Origin: Parahoeflea alexandrii
GTDB lineage: Bacteria > Pseudomonadota > Alphaproteobacteria > Rhizobiales > Rhizobiaceae
Reading direction: 5' to 3'
NCBI RefSeq assembly: GCF_024105735.1
Contig: NZ_JAAAML010000002.1
Coordinates: forward strand, 372,001 to 436,000
Length of the DNA stretch: 64,000 nt
The notes beneath the pieces are model-generated. The model was not told where the DNA came from, made no database searches, and worked only from the letters and a program-made list of their open reading frames with translations. The position numbers were made by a program, and so were the translations under genes. Position 1 is the stretch's first letter. Each line of letters opens with the position of its first letter. Below are positions 916-17,736 of the stretch, piece after piece.

Positions 916-931
916 CGTTTCACGTGAAACG
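916..931. promoter_or_regulatory. parS site (perfect palindrome)
   Basis: CGTTTCACGTGAAACG is a perfect 16-bp palindrome whose inner 14 bases equal the widely conserved chromosomal ParB-binding parS core. It lies between mnmG and mnmE, next to where parAB sits in relatives. ParB loading here would organise origin segregation. Identified by motif only. Confidence 0.88.
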
Positions 932-969
932 TACACGATGCTCGCTGAGCTGGCTGTTGTTGGGGTCAG

Positions 970-985
970 TGTTTCACGTGAATCA
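970..985. promoter_or_regulatory. parS site (one mismatch)
   Basis: TGTTTCACGTGAATCA matches the parS palindrome with one changed base in the right half (GAAAC to GAATC). The change makes a GANTC site, the target of the CcrM methylase of alphaproteobacteria. It is 54 bp (start to start) from the perfect site at 916. Confidence 0.82.
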
Positions 986-1007
986 CAGGCATGGCCCAGT
1001 AATGCAC

Positions 1008-1023
1008 TGTTCCACGTGAATCA
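1008..1023. promoter_or_regulatory. parS site (two mismatches), overlapping the mnmE stop codon
   Basis: TGTTCCACGTGAATCA is the third parS-like site in about 110 bp. Its last three bases are the stop codon of mnmE on the minus strand. It carries the same GAATC right half as the neighbouring site, plus a T-to-C change in the left half. Confidence 0.75.
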
Positions 1024-3774: not shown

Positions 3775-3790
3775 CGATTCACGTGAAACG
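3775..3790. promoter_or_regulatory. parS site (one mismatch) between hemJ and rho
   Basis: CGATTCACGTGAAACG lies in the 212-bp gap between rho and hemJ. Read on the other strand it is CGTTTCACGTGAATCG, so it has the same GAATC-type half as the sites at 970 and 1008. It is the parS-like site closest to the proposed oriC (about 1.7 kb). Confidence 0.8.
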
Positions 3791-3867: not shown

Positions 3868-4413
3868 TCAGGCGAAGGGCTTGATGATCACCATGATCAC
3901 CACGAGGATCATCAGCACCGTCGGGATTTCATTGGCCATCCGCCATTGGCGTGCCGTCATGGTGTTCTGCCCGGCCGCAAACCGCCGTGCCGACCGGCTG
4001 AGAAAGACGTGAAACGCAGTCAGACCGACAACGGCCACGATCTTGATCCAAAGCCAGGTACCCATGAAGCTGAACCCGTCCCATGCCAGCCACAGACCCA
4101 CGACCCAGGACACCATCATGGCCGGGTTCATGATCACCTTGACCAGACGCTGCTCCATGACAACGAATGTGGTCGAGGGCTCGCTCCCGGCCGCAGCGTC
4201 GGCATGATAGACAAAAAGCCGCGGCAGGTAGAACAACCCGACCATCCATGAAATGACAGCGACGATGTGCAGAACCTTGAGCCAGCCATAAAGCCAGTCC
4301 GGCTGGAACCACCAGGCAGCCAGTGCGGCCAGAACCACCACGGCAATGCTGAGATAGGCCTTGGTGCGGGCCTTGCTGCCTTCGGCCTGGCTTGTAGCGC
4401 GTTGCTCGTTCAC
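3868..4413 (-). CDS. hemJ: protoporphyrinogen oxidase HemJ
   Basis: HemJ is the membrane enzyme that oxidises protoporphyrinogen IX to protoporphyrin IX in bacteria without HemG or HemY. The 181-residue product has four to five membrane segments and the family hallmarks [12 protein letters not shown] (with the conserved histidine) and [10 protein letters not shown] in the first half, then a second helical pair and a short basic loop. It begins with GTG at 4413, overlapping the hemE stop by four bases (GTGA), so the two haem genes are translationally coupled. The N-terminal ~20 residues are polar and not conserved in the family. Confidence 0.93.
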
Positions 4414-5450
4414 CGGCCTGCGGCGCCCCGGATCCGGTTCATCAACCGGGTGACGTTCTCGGGATCGGCTTGCGGCGTGATTCCATGGCCCAGATTGAAG
4501 ATCAGCGGACCTTTGCCAAGCGTATCGAGCACTTCGTCGATGCCTTCATCCAGCGCAGTGCCGCCTGCCACCATGCGCAGCGGATCAAGATTACCCTGCA
4601 CAGCACCACCCTGCTGGATCTGCCGCGCCAGCTTGGACGGCACCGTCCAGTCGAGACCGACACAATCGACGCCGGTGGCAGCCCGATAGGTTTCCAGAAG
4701 TGCGCCAGCTCCCTTGGCAAATCCGATGATCGGAACCCCCGGGCGTTCACGGCGGATCCGGTCGACCATGTGTTTCACCGGACCGATCGAATAGCGCGCA
4801 AAATCCGTTTCCGACAGCACTCCCGCCCAGGAGTCGAAGATCTGGACCGCATCCGCCCCAGCATCGATCTGCGCGATCAGGTAATCGGCCGACATATCCG
4901 ACAGCAATGTGAGAAGGGACATGAAGGCTTCCGGATGCTGCATGGCAAACAATCGCGCCGGCGCCTGGTCAGGCGTCCCATGCCCGGCGATCATGTAGGT
5001 CGCCACCGTCCAGGGAGCCCCGCAGAAACCGAGTAGCGTCGTCTCGGCTGGCAGTTCCGCTCTCAGCCTGCGCACCGTCTCATAGACCGGCGCAAGGTGC
5101 GTGTGAATGTTCGAGGCATCAAGCGATGCAATGGCTTCCGGTGCAATCGGATCCATCAATGGCCCCGTGCCTTCGACAAACCGTACATTCCGGTCAAGCG
5201 CATCAGGAATGACAAGAATGTCGGAAAACAGGATGGCGGCATCAAAACCAAACCGTCTGATCGGTTGCAAGGTGACCTCGACAGCCAGGTCCGGTGTGTA
5301 GCAAAGGTCGAGAAAGCCCTTGGCCTTCGATCTGGTTGCTCGATACTCCGGCAGATATCTCCCTGCCTGCCGCATCAGCCACACCGGTGGAGGGAAGACG
5401 CTTTCACCGCCCAGCACCTTCATGACTTTACGATCACCGGTTTTTGTCAT
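4410..5450 (-). CDS. hemE: uroporphyrinogen decarboxylase
   Basis: HemE removes four carboxyl groups from uroporphyrinogen III to give coproporphyrinogen III in haem synthesis. The 346-residue sequence has the N-terminal signature [16 protein letters not shown] near residues 22-37, the [13 protein letters not shown] segment and FNLGHGITP near the end, all typical of the family; length is normal. Start ATG 5450. It is the first gene of a leftward hemE-hemJ unit. On its other side is the proposed replication origin, an arrangement known from Caulobacter, Rickettsia and rhizobia. Confidence 0.97.
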
Positions 5451-5526
5451 CCACCACTTCCCTTAAATAAATCCTTATTGAAAAGGATTCTGATTCTTAG
5501 ACTCTGTGTTTTACGGGGATTCGCCG

Positions 5527-5546
5527 TTATCCACACTTCATCCACA
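5527..5546 (+). promoter_or_regulatory. DnaA boxes, tandem pair in oriC
   Basis: TTATCCACA (5527-5535) is an exact consensus DnaA box. TCATCCACA (5538-5546) follows 11 bp later (start to start), on the same face of the helix. Both lie just right of the AT-rich stretch, as expected for DnaA-driven unwinding. Confidence 0.78.
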
Positions 5547-5733
5547 GCTTGTCCATATAAGCAAGGACGGCCTTGAAGGCCAATCCGATTTCGAATTCAG
5601 ATTTGCCGGAGACGGATTCGCCGCGTGATTCCAATCCCCTGCACGATACTTCGAATTTCCTTAACGCCGATGCCGGCACATTTTTCCCTGTTGTTCAACT
5701 CACCCCTGCCGAAACTCTCCCGGAGATCGCCAT

Positions 5734-5742
5734 TGTGGACAA
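5734..5742 (-). promoter_or_regulatory. DnaA box in oriC, right part
   Basis: On the minus strand this reads TTGTCCACA, one mismatch from the consensus and a form also bound by DnaA. A further TTATCAACA on the plus strand lies at 5803-5811, just before the PPSR start codon. Confidence 0.6.
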
Positions 5743-5827
5743 ACTGGTGGTTTATCCCTTGCAATGAGAAGCCCCGGCGACCTACTTCGGACTTGTCCCG
5801 GTTTATCAACACCCTGCGGAGAATATT

Positions 5828-6649
5828 GTGGAGCAGACCAAAAACTATTTCCATCTGCATTTGATCTCCGATTCGACCGGCGAAACGCTGATGGCCGCAG
5901 GCCGGGCTGCCGCCGCCCAGTTCCAGGGGGCCCAGGCGCTCGAGCATGTCTACCCGCTGATCCGCACCCGCAAACAGTTGTTCGCGGTCCTCGATGCCAT
6001 AGATGGTGCTCCGGGAATCGTCCTCTACACCATCGTAGACACCGAACTGGCATCGATCATTGAGCTCAAATGCCGGGACATGGGGCTTCCCAGCGTGTCG
6101 GTGCTGGAGCCGGTGATCAATGTCTTCCAGTCCTATCTTGGTGCGCCCTCCCGCCGTCGTGTCGGCGCCCAGCACGATATGGGAGAGGAATACTTCAAAC
6201 GCATCGATGCGCTGAATTTCACCCTGGACCATGACGACGGCCAGCTGCCGGCCGATTTCAACGAGGCGGATCTGGTCATTCTCGGGATCAGCCGGACCTC
6301 GAAGACGCCGACGAGCATCTACCTCGCCAACCGCGGTATCAAGACAGCCAATATCCCGATCGTCCATGGCGTTCCGCTACCCCAAGACCTGATCAAGGCG
6401 ACAAGGCCTGTCGTTGTCGGGCTCATTGCTTCCGTCGACAGGATCGCACAGGTCCGTCAAAACCGGATTCTCGGCGCAACCACCGGATATCAGGGCGAGC
6501 ACTACACCGACCGCTCCCTGATCAGCGAAGAACTCAAATACGCCAGATCCCTGTGCGAGCGGCACGGCTGGCCGGTCATAGATGTGACCCGGCGGTCTAT
6601 CGAGGAGACCGCAGCGGCCATTCTTGCCTTGCGCCCGAAGTGGCGTTAA
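5828..6649 (+). CDS. pyruvate, water dikinase/PPDK regulatory protein (PPSR, DUF299 family)
   Basis: This family is a combined ADP-dependent kinase and Pi-dependent pyrophosphorylase that switches pyruvate phosphate dikinase or PEP synthase off and on. The 273-residue sequence has the N-terminal [13 protein letters not shown] motif and the family P-loop-like stretch [18 protein letters not shown] near residue 155, followed by KTANIPIV. It starts with GTG at 5828, directly at the right edge of the proposed oriC. It is the first gene of a rightward run, with maf beginning 42 bp downstream. In Rickettsia the equivalent gene, RP001, also borders the origin. Confidence 0.95.
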
Positions 6650-6691
6650 CCCCCTTTGGGTCCGCGACCCGCTTCGACAAAGGAGACCTCC

Positions 6692-7285
6692 ATGCCGCCG
6701 CGCCTCGTTCTTGCTTCGGCGAGCCCATTTCGAAAGACCCTTCTCGAAAACGCCGGGCTCCATTTTGATGCCGAACCTGCGCAGATAGATGAACGGGCGG
6801 TCGAGGACACCATCGAAGGCCTGGATCCGGACGATGTGGCATTGATCCTGGCTGAGGCCAAGGCACAGGATGTATCGGGCCGCCACCCCGGCGCCCTCGT
6901 GATCGGCTCCGACCAGACCCTGTCGCTGGGAGGCGACATCTTCCACAAGCCCGCAAGCATGGATGAAGCCCGCCGCCGGCTTCTCAAGCTTTCGGGCAAG
7001 ACCCACGAACTCAACAGCGCCATCGTGCTGGCAAGGGACGGCGAAACACTCTGGCGCCACATGTCGATCGCGCAGATGACCATGCGTGATCTGGATCCCG
7101 GCTTCGTCGGGCGTCACCTGGCCAATGTCGGAGACAGGGCGCTTTCCTCGGTCGGTGCCTACCAGTTTGAAGGTGAAGGCATCCAGTTGTTCGAGCGGAT
7201 CGAGGGCGACTATTTTGCCATCATTGGTCTGCCGCTTCTGCCGCTCCTGGCAAAGCTCAGGGATCTGGAAGCCATTGATGGCTGA
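6692..7285 (+). CDS. maf: Maf family nucleotide pyrophosphatase
   Basis: Maf proteins hydrolyse non-canonical nucleoside triphosphates to monophosphates as a house-cleaning activity. The chosen start ATG 6692 ([14 protein letters not shown]) has a strong ribosome-binding site (AAGGAG) 8 bases upstream; the frame is open further left to 6656 but those residues do not fit the family. The 197-residue protein has the opening [14 protein letters not shown] and a closing [12 protein letters not shown]. It appears closest to the YceF-like (7-methyl-GTP) branch, but that assignment is uncertain. It overlaps aroE by 8 bases in a different frame. Confidence 0.93.
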
Positions 7286-17170: not shown

Positions 17171-17736
17171 GGGGTGGTCTCGCTGGTTTTCCGGGCGGTC
17201 TCGGGCATCTGTACCATGATCAGTACGGGAGTGTCGGTGCCATCCAGTGATTCACGTGAAACAAGCAGCGGCCTGAACCCGGCCTTCTCGTAGGCGCGAA
17301 TTGCACGCTTGTTGGCAACGTCGGGATCGATGACGATCGTGCCGTGGCCTTCCGCGCGGAGCCCCTCGGTGAATGCCTTCAGCACGGCCGAACCCAGACC
17401 CTGCGACAGTCTTGCCGCATCACCGATACTCATGTCGACGCCAATGCTGTCCGCAGGGACTTGCGCCAGCCAAGGCGCGTTGGTCAACCAGGGTTCTTCC
17501 AGATGATCGCCGACAAACCAGTACTGAATATAGCCTGCGGGCATTCCATCGACCATGAACAAGAACGGACGCGTTGTGTCCCGGTCCTCGACCATGTCGC
17601 GGATATAGCCGATTTCGGCTTCGGGTTCGCCCCACCAGTCACGCCAGTGCGGCGTCTTCAGCCAGTCTTCCAGCAATGCATAGTCATCCGGCGTGACAGT
17701 CCGGAAGCCGATTCTGCCGGCTTCAATTGAGCTCAA
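17167..17736 (-). CDS. GNAT family N-acetyltransferase
   Basis: A 189-residue single-domain acetyltransferase of the GNAT fold. The segment [21 protein letters not shown] near the N-terminus and [10 protein letters not shown]-like plus the acetyl-CoA-binding [14 protein letters not shown] resemble the AAC(6')/IucB-like branch; the motif [15 protein letters not shown] follows. The acceptor substrate cannot be told. The start is taken as TTG 17736, overlapping the hslV 3' end by 14 bases; a later start is possible. A parS-like site (17248-17263) is embedded in its coding sequence near the 3' end, where it encodes part of LVSRESL. Confidence 0.87.
17248..17263. promoter_or_regulatory. parS site (one mismatch) inside the GNAT gene
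   Basis: TGATTCACGTGAAACA is the exact reverse complement of the site at 970-985. It lies about 11.5 kb right of the proposed oriC, inside coding sequence. parS sites within genes near the origin are usual in bacteria. Confidence 0.8.

Follow-up and report, generated by a model that had tools for sequence, protein, structure and literature searches.

A predicted chromosomal replication origin between hemE and the PPSR gene in a Hoeflea-type genome, and a conserved 20-bp element within it

Results and Discussion

The intergenic region between hemE and PPSR

The sequence analysed here, called the window below, is a stretch of 64,000 nucleotides covering bases 372001–436000 of contig C7, in a genome of 4.91 Mb distributed over 13 contigs. 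Within it, hemE and a PPSR gene are separated by a gap of 377 bp, which lies at 377,451–377,827 of the contig. The order of genes around the gap is mnmE, rho, UPF0093 and hemE on one side, and PPSR, maf, aroE, coaE and an exonuclease of RNase T type (dnaQ-like) on the other. The PPSR protein shares 96% identity with its Hoeflea alexandrii counterpart, so the genome is that of a Hoeflea or of a very near relative. The features of the locus, in window positions, are the following.

4410..5450, minus strand: hemE, uroporphyrinogen decarboxylase, left flank (Pfam PF01208, E 1.6e-112)
5451..5827 (377 bp), no strand: oriC candidate between hemE and PPSR, with a skew step, a DnaA-box cluster and parS-like neighbours
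5461..5515, no strand: AT-rich stretch of low helix stability, probable unwinding region
5486..5631, no strand: six GANTC sites, starting at 5486, 5492, 5500, 5518, 5615 and 5627; the site at 5500 is kept across the family
5488..5507, plus strand: conserved element TTCTNWTTCTWWGASTCNGT, here TTCTGATTCTTAGACTCTGT; holds a GANTC and adjoins the least stable DNA of the gap
5527..5535, plus strand: DnaA box 1, TTATCCACA, consensus; starts 39 bp from the element start
5538..5546, plus strand: DnaA box 2, TCATCCACA, one mismatch; 11 bp from box 1
5734..5742, minus strand: DnaA box 3, TTGTCCACA, one mismatch
5752..5762, plus strand: TTATCCCTTGC, kept in 11 of 13 Hoeflea
5803..5811, plus strand: DnaA box 4, TTATCAACA, one mismatch
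5827..5835, minus strand: weak box TGCTCCACA with two mismatches, covering the start codon of PPSR; kept in 13 of 13 Hoeflea
5828..6649, plus strand: PPSR (kinase/pyrophosphorylase, COG1806/DUF299 type), right flank, GTG start (Pfam PF03618, E 1.4e-88)
916..1023, no strand: three parS-like sites, at 916, 970 and 1008 (consensus scan)
17248..17263, no strand: parS-like site on the opposite side of the origin (consensus scan)

An earlier note on this DNA had proposed that the gap is a chromosomal origin and had pointed to a flip in gene direction here, which the annotation bears out, hemE being on the minus strand and PPSR on the plus strand. Divergent hemE (leftward) and COG1806/PPSR (rightward) genes also bound the hemE/COG1806 class of alphaproteobacterial origins, which has been established in Caulobacter and is a prediction in Rickettsia (PMC1914354), and the hemE-bounded location that the note gave for these two genera agrees with the published one. 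With the Caulobacter Cori/Rickettsia type the gap shares the two flanking genes, several DnaA boxes and an AT-rich stretch.

In an alignment of 13 Hoeflea sequences, the DnaA boxes, the left block and the right end of the gap are conserved, and its middle is variable. The conservation of the weak box TGCTCCACA may reflect the coding sequence of PPSR. A palindrome, GGCCTTGAAGGCC, is found within the gap at 5569–5581 and is not conserved in the other Hoeflea sequences. A non-coding RNA in the region was considered and dropped, with zero Rfam matches at the gathering score in 4400–6700.

Placement of the origin

The strongest GC-skew changepoint in C7:1–680000 is at 379,024, which is 1,384 bases from the gap centre used. 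Its bootstrap 95% interval is 364–394 kb, and none of 2000 block permutations gave a changepoint as strong. The skew was expected to switch at the gap rather than elsewhere and did so, with the changepoint 1.4 kb away, over the 680 contiguous kb of C7 only. For 400 kb of G046, another genome from the genus, the changepoint was 1,092 bases from the origin of that genome, again with 0 of 2000 block permutations equally strong. In C7 both flanks of the gap have negative skew (−0.0288 and −0.0083 per base), so that the step alone supports an origin. In C7:1–680000 the skew of the hemE-side arm is roughly three times as strong as that of the PPSR-side arm, and the hemE-side arm is likewise the stronger one in G046.

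The polar octamer GGGNAGGG gives weaker support, being biased to the left of the gap (9 forward vs 30 reverse) and unbiased to its right (22 forward vs 21 reverse, within 300 kb). Its cumulative minimum, with contig C7 read with gaps, is at 409,623, that is, 32 kb from the gap. In G046, for which 20 samples of 20 kb were taken, the octamer flips strand from the 1.88-Mb to the 2.115-Mb sample, a place opposite the origin at 4.467 Mb if the contig of 4.84 Mb is assumed to be closed, and its counts near that origin are too few to judge.

The consensus DnaA box with at least three near matches reported in the earlier note was recovered as TTATCCACA at 5527–5535 and three boxes with one mismatch each. 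With up to one mismatch allowed, the gap thus holds four boxes, against a mean of 0.031 per 377 bp in C7:1–680000 (contiguous), and it is the only 377-bp stretch there with at least three. A perfect box alone is undiagnostic, with 7 copies genome-wide vs 26 for the reversed control pattern. The tandem pattern RTCCACA-N4-RTCCACA, however, has a single occurrence in the genome, which is the gap, and is kept in 13 of 13 Hoeflea. In the origin regions of the family (n=106), the mean is 2.93 DnaA boxes, compared with 0.07 in single-base shuffles, and every region has at least one. A box on the strand of box 3 stands 90–96 bp before PPSR in 54 of these 106 regions, and one at −26 to −22 before PPSR (compare box 4) in 27.

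The parS-like sites were searched with the parS consensus. At two mismatches or fewer, six sites were found in the 4.9-Mb genome, every one on C7 (370,924, 372,916, 372,970, 373,008, 389,248 and 460,237), and the control pattern gave 0. The first five of them are within 12 kb of the gap. The clustering of these putative sites is support for the origin independent of the skew and of the DnaA boxes. When one to three mismatches are allowed, the window contains five parS-like inverted repeats (916–931, 970–985, 1008–1023, 3775–3790 and 17248–17263), where shuffles expect 0.11; four of the five are among the six genome-wide sites.

DnaA doubles as a transcription factor, and the skew interval spans 30 kb, so the gap might be only a conserved promoter region regulated by DnaA, with the origin elsewhere nearby. 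We consider this very improbable, given that three or more boxes are gathered nowhere else in 680 kb, that boxes are present in all the family regions counted and that parS-like sites lie on both sides of the gap. The gap at 5451–5827 is, by contrast, almost certainly a DnaA-dependent chromosomal origin, oriC, as far as sequence can tell. The origin proposed between hemE and PPSR is upheld by its position, the skew step, the unique box cluster, the parS-like neighbours and the conservation of the boxes in Hoeflea, and the Hoeflea origin is in this way placed by several independent lines of evidence.

In the sequence of events that we propose, DnaA would fill the tandem pair at 5527/5538, spread from it to the boxes at 5734, 5803 and 5827, and open the AT-rich stretch 5461–5515, to the left of the pair. 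Two forks would then leave, one past hemE and the other past PPSR, and ParB bound to the nearby parS-like sites would separate the new origins.

A 20-bp element conserved in the family

The deepest conservation in the gap, as read from the aligned sequences, is that of the 20-bp element TTCTNWTTCTWWGASTCNGT, and not of a DnaA box. For this comparison 114 regions were collected, 54 of them distinct regions from the initial sets (the window included) and 60 fetched later. The set leaves out two duplicates, a copy of the window and two loci that lack hemE, and three of the 93 family genomes bearing PPSR are missing from it. The element is present at two mismatches or fewer in 102 of the 114 regions. 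One region without it, L082, is titled Methyloligella, a genus outside the family.

At one mismatch or fewer, the element was found in 290 of 394 family genomes and in 90 of 109 genera; in the same scan, the reversed control was found in 10 genomes and one genome had two copies of the element (table read by eye). An order-wide draw gave it in 14 of 297 genomes, namely 12 of 13 family members and 2 of 284 others. The genome studied here has one match at two mismatches or fewer, which is perfect, and the reversed control also has one match. Among the 106 regions that carry the element at three mismatches or fewer, positions 0, 3, 6, 7, 9, 15, 16, 18 and 19 are invariant, with position 14 restricted to G or C. 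These positions rank among the most conserved of the 90 columns examined, a ranking somewhat inflated by the pattern-based selection of the set, whose rows are also related to one another.

The oriC of Sinorhizobium meliloti, in the same family, reportedly adjoins hemE, and the element is perfect in ten loci (L072–L081), nine titled Sinorhizobium or Ensifer and one Pararhizobium. The layout of the boxes differs: in these ten loci the better ones are about 220 and 267 bp from hemE, whereas the Hoeflea tandem pair is at about 77 and 88. The S. meliloti oriC appears in the literature as sra01 (PMC2245857).

No report of such an element appeared among the literature matches listed, as judged from titles and abstract openings and with subscription papers mostly uncovered, and the matches listed for exact-letter searches with parts of the element were all unrelated by title. 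The element would be an addition to a known origin type, and its novelty is not claimed. It could serve as a signature for marking oriC in draft genomes of most of the genera sampled in the family.

Spacing of the element and the hemE promoter

The distance from the element to the first DnaA-box position is fixed to a large extent. In 75 of the 106 regions, ties included, the position most like TTATCCACA is offset 39, counted from the start of the element; the mean there is 2.98 mismatches to TTATCCACA vs 6.73 overall, and offset 50 comes second (26 regions). In the window, the tandem boxes (5527 and 5538) occupy these two offsets. The quality of the box at offset 39 is, however, low, with one mismatch or fewer in only 14 of 106 regions and two or fewer in 35; outside Hoeflea, the sequence there is mostly a weak match, and in L072–L081 it has 3 or 4 mismatches.

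This weakness of the box outside Hoeflea loosens the link between the element and DnaA, and is one of the reasons to consider that the element is mainly the promoter of hemE, perhaps controlled by GcrA and CcrM with GASTC in the spacer, its conservation having little to do with replication. The element is near hemE, at a median of 39 bp, and many rhizobia show by eye a TTGATA-like hexamer at promoter spacing in the direction of hemE. Matches to GcrA and to a CcrM-type enzyme exist in the genome. In addition, hemE neighbours the element in 18 of 20 places that were fetched, mostly from genomes with no PPSR match there or with odd matches; the two others are both one-mismatch matches and probably due to chance.

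The spacing tells against a promoter: in 104 sequences, whose start codons were extrapolated from alignments, hemE lies anywhere between 27 and 82 bp away, yet the box-like position keeps to offset 39, and this combination favours an origin role for the element. A good −10 hexamer is also absent by eye, and the −35-like hexamer is missing in Hoeflea although the intervening sequence persists. Moreover, the intergenic oriC of S. meliloti is reported as untranscribed (PMC2245857), although this perhaps leaves out the hemE leader. As the element was parted from hemE only in the two chance-like cases, a promoter role keeps a substantial probability, which we place somewhat short of even.

Genomes without PPSR at this place were also read. 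In the cases read where PPSR is missing, the order hemE, element, maf, aroE is retained, and among these loci there was none in which hemE had moved off the element, which leaves the roles of origin and promoter unseparated. Altogether, a PPSR match was lacking in 28 of 121 family genomes; in L231–L238 and L242–L247, loci from such genomes, hemE and the element still stand next to maf and aroE. Several loci of this kind had no DnaA box at one mismatch in the 520 bp scanned, and the initiator of these genomes may recognise other boxes. In G490, a genome with no PPSR at this place, there is no step in GC skew at the element (0.0011 on either side), and the octamer alone switches strand nearby, with counts of three.

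The low-stability stretch and opening of the origin

The AT-rich stretch that the earlier note had placed beside the boxes is indeed there. Its 30 bp at 5462–5491 are the second least stable distinct spot in the 64 kb, and the gap has the low helix stability and AT richness by which hemE/COG1806 origins of alphaproteobacteria are recognised. On the mean of the 106 regions, helix stability is lowest just to the left of the element start and over it. Because the element overlaps the AT-rich stretch, with the weakest part of that stretch on one side and the tandem pair on the other, we read it as a candidate part of an opening module, whose single strand would be held by DnaA or which would be the site of another origin-binding protein. 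On this evidence, the element may help the DNA to open at the origin.

The E. coli R1 box has the opposite polarity to the tandem boxes found here. Since these boxes read TTATCCACA towards PPSR, against both the R1 layout and the box/trio rule, opening on the left side is something that we infer. The latter rule asks for a DnaA box, a spacer of 0–16 and then at least three DnaA-trios in a set polarity, as described for the basal unwinding system of Bacillus subtilis and Helicobacter pylori (PMC8287927, PMC8235120). The gap shares with that system paired DnaA boxes near a stretch of low stability, but the polarity of the tandem pair and the spacing of the element break its rule.

Opening by a DnaA-box/DnaA-trio system, with the trios in or beside the conserved element, was nevertheless weighed. 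The element is T-rich and reads as TTA repeats in some deep members, and trio-like runs beside a box are longer in the regions than in shuffles (3.04 vs 1.15). A DnaA-box-like TCATCCACC covers the start of hemE, and three trios of the right polarity go with it in the AT-rich stretch; this arrangement is seen in the window and is shared by 5 of 13 Hoeflea. This match has two mismatches, though, and is absent from 8 of 13 Hoeflea, and trios at the start of the element have a box on the side required, no more than 16 bp away, in 1 of 106 regions. With that single fit, the trio reading of the element itself was rejected, and we regard opening by such a system as quite improbable. The window has two weak three-trio matches with boxes of two mismatches, one near hemE, the TCATCCACC match just described, and the other near PPSR, neither of which uses the tandem pair.

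GANTC sites and candidate regulators

All six GANTC sites counted in the gap by the earlier note were confirmed. They compare with a mean of 0.60 per 377 bp over 680 kb, although the gap is not unique in this respect, as two other stretches of that size reach 9 and 6. In the whole 64-kb window, GANTC is strongly under-represented, with 128 sites vs 348 expected from shuffles.

The genome has matches for the genes of DnaA, GcrA and a CcrM-type enzyme (RAMA), so methylation of the conserved GANTC would be possible, and this site in the element could report the methylation state set by CcrM. In Agrobacterium tumefaciens, depletion or excess of CcrM affected ori2 and had no clear effect on ori1 (PMC11514494), and the result for ori1 speaks against a methylation switch.

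The broadest reading of the element is that most Rhizobiaceae share a dedicated 20-bp origin element with a GA(G/C)TC methylation site, its distance to the first DnaA-box position being fixed, which would act as a switch for chromosome opening and licensing, an alphaproteobacterial counterpart of the 13-mer/GATC region of E. coli read by DnaA or by another origin-binding protein. We advance it tentatively and consider it rather unlikely. If the element were such an opening and licensing site, rhizobial opening and once-per-cycle control without CtrA consensus sites at the origin would become testable.

The full CtrA consensus TTAA-N7-TTAA is indeed absent from the gap and from the 13 Hoeflea, and occurs in 5 of the 114 regions. 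A looser TTAA-N7-CTTA stands at 5463–5477, which the earlier note had itself called weak, rightly so; 4 of 13 Hoeflea carry one. Control by CtrA was rejected on these counts. Involvement of IHF was also set aside: in a consensus scan, the site WATCAN5WTR had 0 matches in the gap, and was seen in 1 of 13 Hoeflea and in 22 of 114 regions. With neither the full CtrA site nor the IHF consensus site, the gap differs from the Caulobacter Cori type; CtrA sites are predicted in several Wolbachia origins (PMC1914354). Caulobacter has G- and W-boxes (PMC4468827), and the gap has a consensus DnaA box instead.

Finally, C1:884708–885480 carries a second copy of a DnaA C-terminal-type domain and, adjacent to it, a second GcrA-like stretch (the latter with one in-frame TGA), and a third match of the DnaA C-terminal type is at C8:434264–434401 (loci L225, L227 and L228). 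These extra copies perhaps belong to a mobile element with its own cell-cycle genes.
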